From Haloarcula mannanilytica (GTDB lineage Archaea; Halobacteriota; Halobacteria; Halobacteriales; Haloarculaceae): a stretch of DNA of 64,000 nt. Below, in pieces: positions 29,188-37,376 of this stretch. Position 1 is the stretch's first letter. Each line of letters begins with the position of its first letter. The stretch spans positions 62,001 through 126,000 of the forward strand of contig NZ_BIXZ01000008.1 in NCBI RefSeq assembly GCF_005406125.1, read 5' to 3'. The notes below the pieces were generated by a model, which was not told the DNA's origin, did no database searches, and was given only the letters and a program-made list of their open reading frames with translations. Position numbers and translations under genes: made by a program.

Positions 29188-30453
29188 TCACCCATCGATT
29201 GGGTCACCACAGGACGGACAGGTGTCAGCAGCAGGCGGGAGCGACTCGCCACACTCGCCACAGTAAGACGGGCCGTCGTCGCGCCCGCCCGGCGTGAAAA
29301 CGGCCGTGTCGTCGATCCACTCCTCGTCGGCGGCGTCTTCTTCAACATCACCGTCGGCGGTGTCGGCCGCGTCACTATCGTCCTTCGTGGCCGTCGACGC
29401 CTCCGTATCGGTCTCGCCCTTCACAGCCGTTGGTTCCGCTGTGGCGTCCTCCGGAGACTGACCGTCGCCCTGTGTTGATTCGTGAGCAGGCGGTTGCGTC
29501 TGTGCAACCTCATCGGGCGAGAACACGCGCGTCCCGGTGTGTGCCGGCGTGGCGTCGTCGTCGGCCTCGTCCGCTGTGTCGGTCTCGTCCACAGGCTGTT
29601 CACGGGGTTCAGTGTCGGCAGCACGCTCGACAACCGCGGTCTCGTCAGCGTCCCGCGGACTGTCGACCGGTGGCATGATCGGAAACCGCTGGTCCGGGCG
29701 ACGCTGCGGGTTCGCAAGCGGCGCACGGGCTCTGACGACGGCCCCGGCCAGCAGTTGGACCAGAAGGTACACACTCGCCAGCACACCGGGAACGGCGATG
29801 CAGACAGCGCCGACCTGTGCTGCCGGGAGACCGAACAGTTGCAGCATCGTTTCGACCACGGGACCGACCCCAGCGTCCGCTATCCATGGGGACAGGCCGG
29901 GTTCCGTCATCGCATGGACGAGCCACGCAACCCCGAACGAAACCGCGCTCACGAACACCAGCAGCGACAGGAACGGCGGGGACGAAAGCGTGTACACGCG
30001 GTGTCCGTATGCGACGGTCCGAACGACCAGATGCACTGACCCGACCACCGCAAGTACCGTAAGCGGCAGCCACTGGCCGAGAATGACACGCAACAGGAGA
30101 CAGCCCAGAAGGACACACCCGGGAACAGCGAGCAACAGGCTGGGGTGGTCCAACCGGTACGCGCCGACGAGGTTCCCGTGCCTGTTCCGGAGCCGACGAT
30201 TGATCAGCGCGACACTCACCAGCCCCGGACCGACGAGCCAGAGACCGACAGCAAGAACAGTGCAAAACGAGAGGGCACCCCCCGTCGAGAAAACAGGTCC
30301 GTCAAGCCCGAGAGCACCCAATACTCGTCCAGTTGCGATCACCCAGCCGCCGTAGGCGACCCATGCCAAACCCATGCCGACGAACAGCCAGGTTTCGGCT
30401 CGCAGTAGTGCGGCGGACTCGCGGAGTTCCGACCCCAGTCGACCACGCTCCAT
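29188..30453 (-). CDS. Polytopic membrane protein with C-terminal zinc ribbon
   Basis: This 421-residue protein has about six or seven TM helices in residues 20-260, then an acidic low-complexity stretch (about 275-385, rich in Asp, Glu, Thr, Ala) and a final zinc ribbon (SYCGECGESLPPAADTCPSC). The ribbon resembles those of the neighbouring FHA protein. It is the last gene of the minus-strand signalling cluster, 40 nt after the FHA gene. Function unknown; its place suggests a membrane anchor or output for the kinase/phosphatase system. Confidence 0.75.
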   Translation of the reverse strand: MERGRLGSELRESAALLRAETWLFVGMGLAWVAYGGWVIATGRVLGALGLDGPVFSTGGALSFCTVLAVGLWLVGPGLVSVALINRRLRNRHGNLVGAYRLDHPSLLLAVPGCVLLGCLLLRVILGQWLPLTVLAVVGSVHLVVRTVAYGHRVYTLSSPPFLSLLVFVSAVSFGVAWLVHAMTEPGLSPWIADAGVGPVVETMLQLFGLPAAQVGAVCIAVPGVLASVYLLVQLLAGAVVRARAPLANPQRRPDQRFPIMPPVDSPRDADETAVVERAADTEPREQPVDETDTADEADDDATPAHTGTRVFSPDEVAQTQPPAHESTQGDGQSPEDATAEPTAVKGETDTEASTATKDDSDAADTADGDVEEDAADEEWIDDTAVFTPGGRDDGPSYCGECGESLPPAADTCPSCGDPIDG

Positions 30454-30493
30454 CGGTCTGATGTTTCCCGACCGGCCGCTTAACTATGGGTGG

Positions 30494-31696
30494 TTACGCC
30501 GCCCGAATCGTCATCGTGACGACACCGGACAGTTCGAGTTCGTCGCCCAGTTCGACCGGCTCCCGGTCGCCTTTCTGCATCGGGGTTCCGTTCAGCCGCG
30601 TCGGATTGTCACCCAGGTCGACTAAGTAGAACCCCTCCGGCTGGCGGTCGAACCGGACGTGTTCACGGTGGATCCGAACCGCTTCGTCTTCCGGCCGCCC
30701 GGCGTCAAGCAGCGCGGCCCGGATTTCTCTGCCGATACGGTCCCCGTCTTCGACGGCGATGTCTCGACCTTCGACGGAGAGAACGAGTGTGTCAGGCACC
30801 GGTTCGTCGTCTGACTGTGACGCAAGCGTCTCGACAGCGTTGCCAGCGGTCGCTGGCTCAGCCGCCGTCTCGTCGGTCGTCGACGGGCTGGACGCCGAAT
30901 CGGCCGTCGGCGTGTCACTCTCGCCGCGGTGAGCGTCTAGGTCCTCCCCACAGTTGACACAGAAGCTCGCATCGTCGTCGACAGGGGTGTCACAGGACGG
31001 GCAGGCGTCGAGTGATCCGTCGTCACCTGGCGTGATGTCTTGTACGTCGGCACCGCAATCGATGCAGAAATTCGCGTCGGCGTCGAGTTCCCGTTCGCAG
31101 TCCGGACAGGTGATCGTCGCTTCGTCGTCTGTTTCCGGATCCTCGTCAGTAGATGTGGGGCTCTCGCCGGTTTTGTCAGCCTCGTCGGTCTCCTCAGCCC
31201 CGTCGGCCTCGTCAGCCTCGCCGGTTTCGTCAACGCCGTCGGCCTCGTCATCGTTGCCAGCACTGTCAGAGTCATCGCCGGTTTCGGTGAGTTGGTCAGT
31301 ATCCCCGTCAGCGGCCGGTTCGGTCCGGTGGATATCCTCGGCGTTGTCTTCCGCTTTGCCCTCTGTTGCCGTCTCGTCCGTGCGTTCGGCTGTTGCAGTG
31401 TCCGAAGAAAATGCCTCGGCCGCCGACATGTCCTCGTTTCCGTCAGCGTCACCAGTGGACTCATCTACGTCGGTGGCTGCATCACTCGCGCCTTCTGATG
31501 AGGGTGTGTCGTCCGCGCCTTCCGCTATCAGGTCGGCATCGCTCGGACCCCCGTCGTCAGCGTCGAACTCAGTGGCGGTGTTGTCAGTGTGTTGCCACTC
31601 GCCACAGTCCGGGTTCGTACACCACCCACCGGCGACAGTCGGATCGAAATCCTCGTCGCATATAGGGCATTTTACGGTGCGGTCGGGTTCAGGCAT
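30494..31696 (-). CDS. Zinc-ribbon and FHA-domain protein
   Basis: A 400-residue protein. A first zinc-binding motif lies at residues 9-30 (CPICDEDFDPTVAGGWC then CGEW); a long acidic stretch (about 40-190) follows; two zinc ribbons come next (CPDCERELDADANFCIDCG and CPSCDTPVDDDASFCVNCG). The last 100 residues form an FHA domain (GDRIGREIRAALL, IHREHVRF, TRLNGTPMQKGD), which binds phosphothreonine. It is probably a reader of the kinase encoded upstream. It has its own TATA element and a palindrome in front, 60 nt after the PP2C gene. Confidence 0.9.
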   Translation of the reverse strand: MPEPDRTVKCPICDEDFDPTVAGGWCTNPDCGEWQHTDNTATEFDADDGGPSDADLIAEGADDTPSSEGASDAATDVDESTGDADGNEDMSAAEAFSSDTATAERTDETATEGKAEDNAEDIHRTEPAADGDTDQLTETGDDSDSAGNDDEADGVDETGEADEADGAEETDEADKTGESPTSTDEDPETDDEATITCPDCERELDADANFCIDCGADVQDITPGDDGSLDACPSCDTPVDDDASFCVNCGEDLDAHRGESDTPTADSASSPSTTDETAAEPATAGNAVETLASQSDDEPVPDTLVLSVEGRDIAVEDGDRIGREIRAALLDAGRPEDEAVRIHREHVRFDRQPEGFYLVDLGDNPTRLNGTPMQKGDREPVELGDELELSGVVTMTIRAA

Positions 31697-31707
31697 GGGT
31701 TTCGTTA

Positions 31708-31734
31708 GGCTCTAAAGAGCCAAGAAATAAAATA
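31708..31734 (-). promoter_or_regulatory. TATA box and palindrome of the FHA gene
   Basis: A TATA-like tract (TATTTTATTT, 31725-31734) lies about 33 nt before ATG 31696. Between them is the perfect palindrome GGCTCTAAAGAGCC (31708-31721), placed at the expected transcription start region, where a bound protein would block transcription. Confidence 0.5.
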
Positions 31735-31756
31735 CTTGCCCCACGAAACTTTCTCT

Positions 31757-32962
31757 CTATTCGTCTGTCATAATAACCGTATCGCGTTCGGACACGTCGA
31801 TATCAGGGTCGATATTCCGAACCGGCATCCCGCCGCTTTCCGGCGTTTCAGGGAGAGCGCTGTCGGCAAACATGAGCACAGAGATGTTGTCCTTCCCGCC
31901 GCGGTCGTTTGCCAGTGACACGAACTCACGACTCGCCGCATCGAGCGATGGGGCATCGAGGACAACGTCCCGGATTTCGTCGTCGGTGACGACCCGTTCG
32001 CGGATCCGTTCGGCCACCGCGTCGGCGTGGTCTGAGTCGACGTACTCCTCGTACAGCTCCGGCGCATCGGTCTGTGCGTCGATGAGTCCGTCGCTGGTCG
32101 CAAGCACCGTGTCTTCGGCGTACAGCCTGACCGTCCGTGTATCCACCTCGACGGTCGCCTCGTCGGGGTCCTCGTAGCCGGACCCGCCTAACGCGCGCGT
32201 GATCTCGTTGCCGTTCGGATGGACGTGGGCCTCGACGGAGTCGATTTCGTCGCTGTCGGCCCACTCCTGGACGACAGCGTGGTCCCTGGTCAGTGGCGAA
32301 ATCGTTCCACGCGCCCCGTTGACGACGTAGGCCCGGCTGTCACCGACCCAGCCGTAGTGGAGTTTGCCGTCGGCGTAGATCCCCGCGACAACCGTCGTGT
32401 AGGATTGAGTCCCGGTCTCGTCGGCGTACCGGATGATCTCCCGGTGGGCCGCCGTGATCGCCTCGGACACCGCGGTTTCGAGTTCCTGCTCACCGGGCGG
32501 GTCCGGGAGGACATCACGGGCCACATCTACGTCGAAGCCGCCAGGATAGCTCCGGGCTGTCCGGATCGCCACAGGAGCAAGGTGTTCAGCTACGATAGTG
32601 GTCGTGATGTACGACGCGATGTCGCCCGCGTCGTGCCCGCCGGCACCGTCGGCGACCACAAACACGCCGGCCGAGCGGTTCATCGGCCGACTGTCGCCGT
32701 CAGTGTCGGGCGTATCTGTCTCATCCGTCTCAGACGTATCCGTATTGTCCGTCTCAGACGTTTCTGTATCAGCAGCGTCCGCCGCTATCGCAGCGTCGGC
32801 TGTCCCGTCGCCCGCTGTAGGCGCGTTCGGGGACCGTGACCTGTCCTGGCCGCGGTACCCGTCCCGGTGTCCCTCCTCGAACACCACCAGTGAGACGCTG
32901 TCCTCGTTGATACCCTGTCCTCGCTTCCTGTCACCGATGTCGTAATTCGTGCTGTATCTCAT
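31757..32962 (-). CDS. PP2C-type Ser/Thr protein phosphatase
   Basis: A 401-residue phosphatase of the PPM family. Motifs are DRKRGQGINEDSV near the N-terminus, the metal-binding VVADGAGGHDAGD (about residues 101-113), YGWVGDSRAYVV, TSDGLIDAQ and GGKDNISVLMF. A linker of about 60 residues rich in Asp, Thr and Glu (residues about 45-90) is inserted between the first and second motifs. Its ATG overlaps the stop of the kinase gene (ATGA), strong evidence that the two are a matched pair that phosphorylate and dephosphorylate the same targets. Confidence 0.94.
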   Translation of the reverse strand: MRYSTNYDIGDRKRGQGINEDSVSLVVFEEGHRDGYRGQDRSRSPNAPTAGDGTADAAIAADAADTETSETDNTDTSETDETDTPDTDGDSRPMNRSAGVFVVADGAGGHDAGDIASYITTTIVAEHLAPVAIRTARSYPGGFDVDVARDVLPDPPGEQELETAVSEAITAAHREIIRYADETGTQSYTTVVAGIYADGKLHYGWVGDSRAYVVNGARGTISPLTRDHAVVQEWADSDEIDSVEAHVHPNGNEITRALGGSGYEDPDEATVEVDTRTVRLYAEDTVLATSDGLIDAQTDAPELYEEYVDSDHADAVAERIRERVVTDDEIRDVVLDAPSLDAASREFVSLANDRGGKDNISVLMFADSALPETPESGGMPVRNIDPDIDVSERDTVIMTDE

Positions 32963-34197
32963 GACTCCTCCGGATGGAACTCGAACGTGACGCCGTAGGT
33001 CGGATGGACGAGCGACACCAGGTCACCGTCCGTGAGTTCGACCGACTCCGGCGGGACGTTGCCGTGCCTGTCGGTCGGGTCCTCGCCCTCGGAGCGCAGG
33101 CGGTCGCGCCCGGGTGTCGAAAGAACCCGTTGCCAGCCGGCCCCTTTCTGGACGAACGTGCCGTTGAGGCTCCGGTCGTGGAGGTACCAGTCGCCGTCCT
33201 CGATGTCGAACTGGACCTGCACAGAGGAGATGTACTCCCCCTGTGGGTCCTCAATTGTTATCGATGCGGGGGGACCGTTCGCCCCTTCTCGGCCGATGGT
33301 ATCACCGGGTTCAACCGTGAACTGCCGGTCAGCCTGGATATACGTCACCGACGCCGTCGCGGGCGGCGTGGGGTCGCGCCGTTCGAGAACCTGTTTGAGA
33401 ACTGTCGCGTTCCGGTATCGGTCCCGGTAATGCGTCTGCGTGGCCCGTTCGACGATTTCCGCCAGGTAGTCCTCGCAGTCGGCCCCGAAATTTTGGGGGT
33501 TCACGCCGTCTTTCTTCGGGACGCTGCCCTTGAGCAGGAACAGGAGTATCTTCCCGATGGAATACACGTCCGACCACGGTCCCTGCCGAACGTCGGTCCG
33601 GCTGGCCTCGGCGACTTCGCGGGGCTTGAACGGCCCCAGAATCGTCGTCCCAGTGTTCCCGGAAGACGGGTCTCCCGTCGCGTCGAACCCCGTCGCCGTG
33701 TTGAAATCGATGAGCGTGGGTGTGATATCCGGCGTAAGCATCACGTTCTCGGGTTTCAGATCCCGATAGACGATTTCATTCTCGTGGAGAAAGCCCATCG
33801 CGTCACAGAGGTCGATGCCGATCTGGCGGACCTGCTCGCTGTCGTCGATTGGCCCGTGCTGGTCGATGACCTCGTCGAGTTCGATCCCGTCGACGATTAG
33901 CTGGACGACCAGGAACGGAACGTCGCGCTCCGTGACCTGGTCGTAGTAGTCCATCACGTTCTCGTGGCCGCCGGCCCGACGGATGCGCTCAAGCGAACCG
34001 ACCTCCTTTTTGAAGTACTCCTCGATGATGTCGGGGTCGTTCTGGGACTCGGTGTAGTTGGGGTATTTAACGGCAACCGTCTCGCCCGTCTCGATGTCTC
34101 TGGCGCGGAACGCCTTCGCGAACCCGCCTTTGCCGAGGAACTCACCGAGTTCGTACCGGCCGGCGATGACATCACCGCTTTCAGGTTCCCAGGTCAT
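32959..34197 (-). CDS. Ser/Thr protein kinase with C-terminal FHA domain
   Basis: A 412-residue Hanks-type kinase. The glycine loop is LGKGGFAKAF (residues 21-30), the ATP lysine Lys44 (VAVKYP), the helix C Glu65, the catalytic loop YRDLKPEN (144-151, Tyr in place of His), and the metal motif DFN (164-166, Asn in place of Gly). All catalytic residues are present, so it is probably active. The C-terminus (about 285-410) is an FHA domain (GDTIGREGANG, HDRSLNGTFVQKG), so it may bind its own or its partners' phosphothreonines. No TM segment. It sits between the vWA gene and the PP2C gene. Confidence 0.94.
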   Translation of the reverse strand: MTWEPESGDVIAGRYELGEFLGKGGFAKAFRARDIETGETVAVKYPNYTESQNDPDIIEEYFKKEVGSLERIRRAGGHENVMDYYDQVTERDVPFLVVQLIVDGIELDEVIDQHGPIDDSEQVRQIGIDLCDAMGFLHENEIVYRDLKPENVMLTPDITPTLIDFNTATGFDATGDPSSGNTGTTILGPFKPREVAEASRTDVRQGPWSDVYSIGKILLFLLKGSVPKKDGVNPQNFGADCEDYLAEIVERATQTHYRDRYRNATVLKQVLERRDPTPPATASVTYIQADRQFTVEPGDTIGREGANGPPASITIEDPQGEYISSVQVQFDIEDGDWYLHDRSLNGTFVQKGAGWQRVLSTPGRDRLRSEGEDPTDRHGNVPPESVELTDGDLVSLVHPTYGVTFEFHPEES

Positions 34198-34253
34198 GCG
34201 TCAGTTGTCGCTCCAACCTGCGACGCCGCTGCCGACCCCGTGGGCTGTTGGAG

Positions 34254-35438
34254 TCACTTCTGGATGCCGTCGTCAGTGACGATCTTCGTCGCCTTGTTCT
34301 GTTCCTTGCGGCCACCTTCCATCACAATCTGTGTCTCCCGCTCGGCCGTTTGGACGGCCTCGGTGTCCTCGCCGTGGATGCGCGTCATCCGCTCTAGCTG
34401 GGTCTGTGCCTCGGCGACGTTGCCCTTGCCGAGTTCGGTCTTGATGACCGTCTGGCGGTGGTCCACGTCGACCTGTTCGTTGTGTTCGGCCAGTTTCGCC
34501 TCGTCTTCGGTGTAATCAACCGTGATGGATTCCCTGGTCGTCTCACCACCGGCATTCAGCGTGACATCGGCCAGGGACACCGAGTCCCGAAGGTCGTGGG
34601 CTGGTGCGTGGATCTTCAGTACGACCCGCTGTGTCTCCCGTTCGAGGAGGTCGGGCAGCGGCACGACGGCCGCGTTGTCCTCCCAGTCAGGGTCCACGGA
34701 CTGGGTCTGTGGGAGCGACCGATACACCTCGCTGACCTCGACGCCGTCGGCCACGTCAAGTTCGAGGCGGGCGTCGGGCGCGACGACGGTACCGGCCTCT
34801 TCGACCGCGTCGCCGAAGAACGACTCGATGTCACCGGCGGCATCCAGATGGGTCCATTCGCCGCGGGCCACGGTCCCGAGCGTCCGGATGGTCTCCTCGC
34901 GGTAGTCGCTCCCGATGCCGGCCGCCTTTATTCGGATGCCCTCGCTGTCGATTTCGCGGGCCAGTTCGCCAAACGCCTCCGGGTCGTGGGAGTTGTCTTT
35001 CCCGTCAGAGAGGAGCAGGACCCGCCGGGCCGTGCTGTCGTCGCTGGGCAAATCACGCAGCGATGCCTTCGCTTCCAGCAGGCCGCTGTACATGTCGGTG
35101 CCGCCGCCGGCGGAGATATCGGCGACCGCGTCCACTGCCGTCTCGCGTGAAAGCGTCCCCCACCGCGTCGGCTCCAGTACCGTCGTGACCTCGTTGTCGA
35201 AGGCGATGATCGAGATGTAGTCGTCCTCGTCGAGCAGTCCGAACACCCACTCAGCGCCCGCGCGCGCCTGCTTGATGTCGTCGCCCGCCATCGACCCGCT
35301 CGCGTCGATGCAGAGAGCGATCTGTCGCGTGGGTTGTTCCTCCAGCCGTCCGGGTTCGACTTCGATTTCAGCGGTCAGTTTCGCCCCACCCGTCGGCACG
35401 TAGGGTCGGTTGACCTCACTCACGAGGGTAGCGGTCAT
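34254..35438 (-). CDS. von Willebrand factor A domain protein
   Basis: A 394-residue soluble protein whose vWA domain (about 38-215) has a complete MIDAS metal site: DASGS (residues 45-49), a Thr in GGGTDMYSG and an Asp in LLSDGKDNSHD. The following region (about 220-330) is beta-rich, and the end is a charged helical tail (ETQIVMEGGRKEQNKATK). It leads the signalling cluster, 56 nt before the kinase gene. vWA proteins with kinase and PP2C partners recall the TerY/TerP/PP2C triad of bacteria; orthology is not shown. A TATA box (35462-35471) and a perfect inverted repeat precede it. Confidence 0.92.
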   Translation of the reverse strand: MTATLVSEVNRPYVPTGGAKLTAEIEVEPGRLEEQPTRQIALCIDASGSMAGDDIKQARAGAEWVFGLLDEDDYISIIAFDNEVTTVLEPTRWGTLSRETAVDAVADISAGGGTDMYSGLLEAKASLRDLPSDDSTARRVLLLSDGKDNSHDPEAFGELAREIDSEGIRIKAAGIGSDYREETIRTLGTVARGEWTHLDAAGDIESFFGDAVEEAGTVVAPDARLELDVADGVEVSEVYRSLPQTQSVDPDWEDNAAVVPLPDLLERETQRVVLKIHAPAHDLRDSVSLADVTLNAGGETTRESITVDYTEDEAKLAEHNEQVDVDHRQTVIKTELGKGNVAEAQTQLERMTRIHGEDTEAVQTAERETQIVMEGGRKEQNKATKIVTDDGIQK

Positions 35439-35542: not shown

Positions 35543-36166
35543 TCAGTAGTAGGTGCTACCTACATCACCTGTCTCGACTCGATTCCCGACCCAGAGAAGT
35601 GTGCCGAGCAGTGCCACGACAGTGATAGGGAGGAGCCACTGAAACAGCGAGAGGATTCCAGCGCTCGCCTGAACACCGACGACAAGCAGAACGGTCGGAC
35701 CACAGCAGGCGAATCCAGAGAGCAGACCCGGCAGGCCCGCCGCGGCCCCTGCGCCTGGGCCGAGACGGCAGGCTGACGGGCCGCGCCACGCAACGACGGA
35801 GACGGCCAAGTTGAGTCCGACCAGGGTTGCCAGGACGCCGCCAAGCAGGATGTTCAGCGGCGCGACGAGCAGTTCGACCGGGCCGGCGACTACCAGCGCG
35901 ACCGGTTCCCACTGGAACGGTCCGACCTGCCGGAACGCACGAGTGAGGGGGTTACTGACGACTGAGATCTCGTATCCAGGCTGGCCGAACCCGAGGTGTC
36001 TGAGGCCGACGAGATACGACAGGAAGTACGACAGTCCCGTCACGCCCAGCGTTACTCGCCCGTCGTTGCGGGTGAGTGCCCCCCGGAGCGCGATAGCCGT
36101 CCTCCGAAGCAAGCCTTCGATTCTGGCGGCTATACCGGGCTCACTCGGCGTGCTGTCAGTCGACAT
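35543..36166 (-). CDS. Polytopic membrane protein with CCGPTVL motif
   Basis: About 207 residues with five or so hydrophobic segments. A Cys-Cys pair sits in GFACCGPTVLLVVGVQ, recalling metal-handling or thiol membrane proteins, but I cannot assign it. The N-terminus (STDSTPSEPGIAARIEGLLRR) is cytoplasmic and basic. The start at 36166 overlaps the upstream DUF3179 gene by 11 nt, so the two are translationally linked. A function together with that secreted or lipid-anchored protein is inference. Confidence 0.75.
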   Translation of the reverse strand: MSTDSTPSEPGIAARIEGLLRRTAIALRGALTRNDGRVTLGVTGLSYFLSYLVGLRHLGFGQPGYEISVVSNPLTRAFRQVGPFQWEPVALVVAGPVELLVAPLNILLGGVLATLVGLNLAVSVVAWRGPSACRLGPGAGAAAGLPGLLSGFACCGPTVLLVVGVQASAGILSLFQWLLPITVVALLGTLLWVGNRVETGDVGSTYY

Positions 36167-37280
36167 ACGCACTCCCCGGATAGAAGCCAGCCCAGGCGAA
36201 CCACATCGCATCGAAGGCCAGTGAGCGGTCCAGCGGCAGTGAATCGGCGTCGTGTGTCGTTCCGTCAATCACGTAGCCGCCATCTGTCGCTTCGACCGTC
36301 ACCGACCCCGGGTTCGCGTAGACGTAGCCAGTCTCTAAGGCGGTGTCGGCAACGGCCACGTACGGTGTGTCCTCGATGCGGCCGGTCAGCACACGCTGCC
36401 TGAGCAGCGTCTCCTTGTCGAACGCAATCGCCCCGACCGCTGTCCGGGACCCGATAACGACGGCCTTCGGATGGGCACGCCCATCGCTTTGCAGCGGTTC
36501 GAACAGCGTCCGAGTACTCGAATAGTAGCCACGCGTCTCGTTGTACTGGCCGTACGGATCGACACCATACCGCCGTGAGAAGCCGGTGTCTTCGGTCAGG
36601 ACAGCGGTTTCCGGAAAGGCGCTGGACCAGCGTTTCCACGTCGTCCAAATCACTCGGAACTCCTGCAGCGACTCGCCCGTTAGTGGGCCTTTAATCGCCG
36701 TCGCCAGCATCTGTGGCCACCAGCTATCGGTGCCCCGGTCGTACATCGTCAGATTCGAGTTCACCAGCCGTCCGGAGACGCCGAACTCTGTCGGGCCGCG
36801 TTCGAACCCCTGTGCAGTGCCCGTCAGCGGGCAGTAGGTGATGGCGACAGAATCGCCGGCGATAGTGTCGTTGACGATCTCGTGGTGGACAAGAATGTAC
36901 TGCGGGTACGCTTTCGCTTCCCCATCGCGGACCACGCCGAACACTGGGTCGTCCGGATCGAGCGTTTCCGGTGGCGTGTCGGCAAACGTCGGGTCGTCGA
37001 TGGCCGGGATCCCGTCCTTGGGAACGCCGCCGCTGACAATGCTCTCTTCGAGAGTCCTAATGTCGTAGTCCAGATACAGTCGGCTGTCAGCTGTCGGCGG
37101 TTTGGACCCGTCGGACTGGTCGGTTGCCGTCGACACTGCGCTGGGCCCGGTATCGGCTCCGGACGCGGAACCGGTCCCAGCGGATTCAGCACCCGAATTG
37201 TCGTCTCCCACACAGCCGGCGCTGCCGAGAGTCACACCGGTACCGAACGTAACGAGAAGTTGCCGACGGGAGAGCCCCAT
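36156..37280 (-). CDS. DUF3179 lipoprotein
   Basis: A 374-residue protein starting MGLSRRQLLVTFGTG, a twin-arginine-type signal ending in a lipobox-like LGSAGC, followed by a Ser/Asp/Thr-rich linker. The main domain (from about residue 70) fits DUF3179: VFGVVRDGEAKAYPQYILVH and VAITYCPLTGTAQGF, then VSGRLVNSNLTMYDRGTDSW. The family's role is unknown; it is secreted or lipid-anchored on the cell surface. Start at 37280 places the signal at the N-terminus. It overlaps the next membrane-protein gene. Confidence 0.9.
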   Translation of the reverse strand: MGLSRRQLLVTFGTGVTLGSAGCVGDDNSGAESAGTGSASGADTGPSAVSTATDQSDGSKPPTADSRLYLDYDIRTLEESIVSGGVPKDGIPAIDDPTFADTPPETLDPDDPVFGVVRDGEAKAYPQYILVHHEIVNDTIAGDSVAITYCPLTGTAQGFERGPTEFGVSGRLVNSNLTMYDRGTDSWWPQMLATAIKGPLTGESLQEFRVIWTTWKRWSSAFPETAVLTEDTGFSRRYGVDPYGQYNETRGYYSSTRTLFEPLQSDGRAHPKAVVIGSRTAVGAIAFDKETLLRQRVLTGRIEDTPYVAVADTALETGYVYANPGSVTVEATDGGYVIDGTTHDADSLPLDRSLAFDAMWFAWAGFYPGSAYVD

Positions 37281-37376
37281 ACAGTGTGTGAGTTTGCCAA
37301 CCACTAAGTCTCGCGGTGAGGGGCCGGTAACTCCCTGTCTGTCCGCTCACCGCGGCAAGTACCGCGGCCGAACCAT

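Follow-up and report, generated by a model that had tools for sequence, protein, structure and literature searches.

What is the role of five adjoining genes in a haloarchaeon that together encode a kinase, a phosphatase and proteins with vWA, FHA and zinc-ribbon domains? The genes lie on the minus strand, at 29188-35438 of a 64,000-nucleotide stretch of Haloarcula mannanilytica (contig NZ_BIXZ01000008.1, positions 62,001 to 126,000), the whole of which is called the window here. An earlier note, made from the sequence alone, had seen in them a set that writes, erases and reads phosphothreonine and includes a membrane component, and had likened them to the bacterial TerY/TerP/PP2C triad and the Ppk/PppA/Fha set. 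Open reading frames (ORFs) and Pfam matches gave, in order, a vWA protein, a kinase-FHA protein, a PP2C phosphatase, a zinc-ribbon/FHA protein and a membrane protein, with gaps of about 56, -4, 60 and 40 bp, the -4 being the ATGA overlap of the kinase and PP2C genes; Pfam, an ortholog profile and predicted fold agreed on the domain types that the note had named. The module is real, conserved and little described. We think it probable that it is a self-contained phosphothreonine module of the ArnA/ArnB type, with its own kinase and phosphatase and anchored at the membrane. New here are the ArnB/ArnA kinship within a complete writer-eraser operon, a bacterial counterpart operon and the conserved threonine tails.

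The vWA protein is ArnB-like. It matched Pfam VWA (E 1e-15), was modelled with a mean predicted local distance difference test score (pLDDT) of 92.6, and has the complete metal ion-dependent adhesion site (MIDAS) described in the note, as D45, S47, S49, T114 and D145 were unchanged in 27 orthologs. The best match of the vWA profile in the PDB was ArnB in 8S05, the entry for the ArnA-ArnB complex (E 2.4e-22), with ArnE (5A8J) among the next. Across the full length of the fold, a template modelling (TM) score above 0.65 was reached only by a Catenulispora vWA protein (4FX5), Sulfolobus ArnB (8S05; TM 0.73/0.75) and its paralog ArnE (5A8J). These are the closest solved relatives by sequence and fold, TerY being far off, and the protein has the three-domain build with intact MIDAS of the vWA component of the ArnA/ArnB module.

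A TerY-P-type triad acting in metal stress or anti-phage defence would contain the same three functional classes (vWA, PP2C and kinase), and such triads are found with defence systems, TerY-P-like modules also serving as stand-alone defence (PMC11090510). The kinase, moreover, matched PADLOC PD-T4-6 and other kinase models. However, the PD-T4-6 matches covered the kinase domain only, and PADLOC returned nothing for the module vWA or PP2C, nor for the R478 TerY and PP2C used as controls, and is hence uninformative for these. The module vWA is not of the stand-alone TerY type: TerY vWAs are single-domain, and those of R478 reached 27-40 bits against the vWA profile, compared with 120-134 for vWAs of Armatimonadota and Planctomycetota. 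In the vWA tree that the earlier note had called for, TerY separated at 100/100 support from the module and the bacterial ArnB-like vWAs. The R478 PP2C and kinase did not match the module profiles, the PP2C not even at E 10, and the module kinase is fused to FHA, not to a C-terminal zinc ribbon or OB fold. Membership of the TerY-P family was therefore ruled out by profile and tree against the R478 ter locus proteins, and a triad of this kind is a very improbable explanation. No Ter, helicase or nuclease genes were recognised near the operon among the window ORFs (Pfam). Secretion genes were likewise missing from the window neighbours scanned with Pfam, and no secretion family recurred beside the module in related loci; the note had been right that neither kind of gene was visible, while its comparison with the type VI secretion set Ppk/PppA/Fha did not hold.

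An ArnA-type partner, a zinc-ribbon/FHA protein encoded near the vWA gene, is present in the same five-gene run. Pfam identified its double zinc ribbon (6e-12), the Cys pairs of its three zinc motifs are conserved among orthologs, and its profile matches ArnA through the zinc part. The FHA domain of the window copy is too divergent to be scored by Pfam; it was recognised in an ortholog (Pfam FHA 4e-7), with the ortholog profile, which matched GarA, Rad53 and further FHA domains at values near 1e-5, and by fold, so that both features claimed for this protein were borne out. The kinase-FHA protein matched Pfam Pkinase (3e-28) and FHA (4e-7), with K44, E65, D146, K148, N151 and D164 unchanged in 21 orthologs. 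The phosphatase matched PP2C_2 (1.5e-10). Some PP2Cs of the Natrinema/Halovivax type failed simple motif patterns. The membrane protein is polytopic with a zinc ribbon, as described previously. In Haloarcula rara (L081, 14127-15313) its gene appears split into two overlapping frames, possibly through a frameshift or a sequencing error.

Three of the five proteins end in flexible or variable tails in which short threonine motifs form conserved islands. In the vWA protein pLDDT falls from 72 to 42 across the last 14 residues. Counted among related orthologs, so that the figures do not represent independent events, T-x-[IVL]-[VFYIM] occurs within the last 18 residues of 53/60 vWA proteins (shuffle expectation 4%), [DEHR]R[DEQA]T or RQDT in the tails of 38 PP2Cs by regular expression and in three more by eye (QRETV, QRETV and NRATV), and T-x-V-[FY] in 33 of the 34 membrane-protein tails. 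In the Natrinema/Halovivax group the vWA tail reads TTVVYD or TTVVFD, and Haloarcula-like PP2Cs have [DE]-R-[DE]-T-V at the C-terminus. In the membrane protein the acidic tail is free to vary outside T-R-V-[FY]-[ST]-P, which itself shows small variations; T308, R309, V310 and P313 were unchanged in 14 aligned orthologs, and shuffling gave T-x-V-[FY]-x-P a p of about 0.001 for each sequence. These motifs resemble known FHA ligands, such as the GarA threonine motif ETTS, which is phosphorylated by Ser/Thr kinases (PMC12321487). DDTSVF of the second membrane-protein motif is similar to ETTSVF, the longer form of the GarA motif. The PP2C motif is missing from PP2Cs of the Natrinema/Halovivax/Haloferax type; the three of these that were scanned have a fused FHA domain instead. 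Because the tail motifs are conserved, and an FHA domain is fused where the PP2C motif is missing, we propose that the proteins of the module carry the ligands for its own FHA domains. A genome-wide search for further TRV[FY][ST]P proteins found four places and no new candidate substrate: the membrane protein itself, two globular-looking ORFs (one of which reads TRVFWP) and one doubtful frame.

We infer from these features a cycle of tail phosphorylation, FHA binding, membrane recruitment and output. The kinase, as writer, would phosphorylate threonines in the flexible tails of three partners: the PP2C, the membrane protein and the ArnB-like vWA protein. Acting as readers, the FHA domains of the kinase and of the zinc-ribbon protein would bind the phosphorylated tails, and the membrane protein might in this way become the platform for assembly. 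As eraser, the PP2C would strip the phosphates, being itself recruited through its tail. The vWA and zinc-ribbon/FHA pair could then be the output switch, passing between loose and tight forms as do ArnB and ArnA. In favour of this, ArnB carries phosphate in its C-terminal helical bundle and is read by the FHA domain of ArnA (PMC6509490; PMC12852372). The note's prediction that the set writes, erases and reads, with a component in the membrane, is supported by the domains present, by the catalytic residues that have been kept and by the synteny; of the earlier reading it was the TerY/TerP comparison that had to be given up. Little of the phosphorylation signalling of haloarchaea has been mapped, and a small circuit whose writer, eraser and readers can be named, in Haloarcula species with genetics, would be of value; the predicted phosphosites TRVFSP, DTVIM and TKIV make it testable. 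The module also ties the Sulfolobus ArnA/ArnB switch to a wider operon that bacteria share.

Several observations weigh against this reading. The kinase motifs deviate, with YRD for HRD and DFN or DFT for DFG, so that its activity is a prediction. In the FHA domain of the zinc-ribbon protein of Haloarcula, His replaces the Ser that usually contacts the phosphate, and one ortholog of this protein (L045) has lost the GR arginine. The threonine motif is missing from 7/60 vWA tails, and conservation of short motifs can have other causes. The phosphothreonine sites mapped in ArnB lie in the helical bundle and not in a C-tail, so that they differ from the conserved T384 motif, and the mechanism cannot simply be carried over from Arn. 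Finally, although ArnB falls on the other side of the vWA tree from TerY, it does so on a very long branch and its placement is unsure.

Table 1. Features of the operon and of related modules (positions in the window, except for the last row)
Feature	Position	Strand	Basis or description
vWA protein, 394 aa, ArnB-like	34254..35438	-	vWA domain, beta-sandwich and C-terminal helical bundle; MIDAS intact
T384-K-I-V in the vWA C-tail, a candidate FHA ligand (phosphothreonine)	34278..34289	-	conservation in orthologs
Kinase-FHA gene	32959-34197	-	Pfam
Hanks-type kinase domain	33373..34155	-	catalytic residues retained; DFN in place of DFG
Kinase FHA domain, C-terminal	32962..33306	-	GR, S and NGT invariant
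PP2C phosphatase, 401 aa	31757..32962	-	metal-binding motifs NED, DGAGGH, SDG, GGKDN; ATGA overlap with kinase
RDTVIMTDE in the PP2C C-terminal tail, a candidate FHA ligand (phosphothreonine)	31760..31786	-	tail conservation
Zinc-ribbon/FHA protein, 400 aa	30494..31696	-	laid out like ArnA: Cys motif at the N-terminus, acidic linker of low confidence, double zinc ribbon, FHA at the C-terminus
FHA domain of zinc-ribbon protein	30497..30796	-	profile matches GarA and Rad53; Foldseek matches are FHA domains
Membrane protein, 421 aa	29188..30453	-	roughly six hydrophobic helices at 23-240, a long acidic C-tail and a zinc ribbon at the C-terminus
Membrane-protein tail motif TRVFSP, candidate phosphothreonine FHA ligand	29515..29532	-	conservation in orthologs
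Second membrane-protein tail motif TAVFTP	29290..29307	-	DDT[AS]VF in Haloarcula and nearest relatives
Second kinase with FHA	L047 11012-12238; L049 11312-12526; L099 13014-14201		Natrinema/Halovivax-type modules

The five genes might be merely co-located, with the kinase and PP2C acting globally and the vWA and FHA proteins doing unrelated work. PP2C/kinase pairs are indeed common in bacteria and frequently global in action. However, among 292 Halobacteria genomes, strong PP2C matches (E < 1e-50) and very strong vWA profile matches (E < 1e-140) fell in an identical set of 39, and in a scan of named genomes the kinase-FHA and PP2C genes adjoined the vWA gene at 36/36 haloarchaeal loci. Most of these loci also have the zinc-ribbon/FHA gene, and those of the Haloarcula-like group the membrane protein gene as well. 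They include Haloarcula, Halomicroarcula, Halomicrobium, Halosimplex, Salinibaculum, Natrinema, Halovivax and Halobiforma, together with Haloferax gibbonsii and Halorubrum ezzemoulense; the concern raised in the note, that the genes might occur together nowhere else, is thus answered by synteny kept across many genera. With the adjacency found again in Armatimonadota and tail motifs on three partners, mere co-location is unlikely. No genome of the same genus was among those listed without a match, unlike what a patchy defence island would give. Gene order is altered in some lineages: Natrinema/Halovivax-type modules have their zinc-ribbon/FHA gene upstream of that for the vWA protein, and a second kinase with FHA follows directly downstream of the PP2C. 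Eight weaker haloarchaeal vWA matches were also found, and at none of the seven such loci fetched was a kinase or PP2C encoded within ~10 kb. A second group of haloarchaeal vWA homologues (L156-L162; 27-34% identity) had neither within ~10 kb. In the same phylum beyond the class, the vWA profile gave only partial vWA-domain matches.

The operon of the window adjoins coxB, coxA and a copper-transporting ATPase gene, and it might be that the module regulates this oxidase or the copper and respiratory genes, rather than being a general switch. Most of the Haloarcula loci fetched retain the cytochrome oxidase genes, as does a single Halomicroarcula locus (L082), the exception among other genera, most of which carry the module elsewhere without cox genes. 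The link to cytochrome oxidase was rejected on these grounds and we regard such a role as improbable; the restriction of the cox neighbours to Haloarcula and the one Halomicroarcula locus indicates instead that the module travels as a unit. A small membrane protein and a DUF3179 protein are encoded beside the operon in the window (35543-37304), and both genes stay there in most Haloarcula and several Halomicroarcula-type loci.

ArnB-like vWAs were detected by the vWA profile in 55/81 Armatimonadota and 17/79 Planctomycetota genomes sampled. At 12 fetched Armatimonadota loci (L199, L205-L212, L218-L220) the vWA, zinc-ribbon-FHA and PP2C genes stand in tandem, with the kinase next in line at nine, whereas L201-L204 have a vWA gene without PP2C. 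The four components are those of the haloarchaeal operon, and threonine motifs recur in flexible ends, among them EKTL[MIV]G at the C-terminus of the vWA protein and, at N-termini, DRTQ or ERTV. Differences are a kinase with a membrane segment, extra membrane FHA proteins encoded upstream in several loci, and canonical FHA domains in the zinc-ribbon protein (two in L111). The zinc-ribbon-FHA proteins of L211 and L219 start with a J-domain-like stretch. Our literature search found no paper describing either this operon or a haloarchaeal ArnAB-like operon; ArnB-like structures have been noted in Halorubrum (PMC12852372). The note's description of the module as little known in archaea is correct within haloarchaea only, as the Sulfolobus ArnA/ArnB pair, an archaeal counterpart that the note had missed, is well studied.

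Among known systems, the TerY-P triad likewise combines vWA, PP2C and kinase, but the vWA and PP2C of the module belong to other subfamilies, there is no TerY-C domain and FHA components are added. The GarA/OdhI switch shares the FHA reader and threonine motif; it has no vWA or zinc ribbon, and holds motif and FHA within one protein. Sulfolobus ArnA/ArnB, with ArnE, is nearest, having a three-domain vWA and a zinc-ribbon/FHA partner acted on by Ser/Thr kinases and a phosphatase (PMC6509490; PMC12852372; PMC7472852). There the kinases are ArnC and ArnD and the phosphatase is PP2A, whereas the module has PP2C, all parts in one operon, a kinase with its own FHA, several zinc ribbons, a membrane protein and candidate threonine ligands in tails. 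ArnA/ArnB represses archaellum genes under rich conditions in Sulfolobus and ups pili genes in Saccharolobus islandicus (PMC6509490; PMC10470591); no archaellum genes were seen among the genes examined beside the operon, and the module might control surface structures in a like way. Because its phosphatase is PP2C, the module, which shares two core proteins with ArnA/ArnB, is filed as an Arn-like variant rather than as Arn. More tentatively, and with somewhat less than even confidence, we suggest that an operon of ArnB-like vWA, zinc-ribbon-FHA, PP2C and kinase, whose members carry the ligands of their own FHA domains and so self-assemble into a membrane complex, is common to Armatimonadota and haloarchaea, and that the Sulfolobus ArnA/ArnB pair is a reduced offshoot of it.

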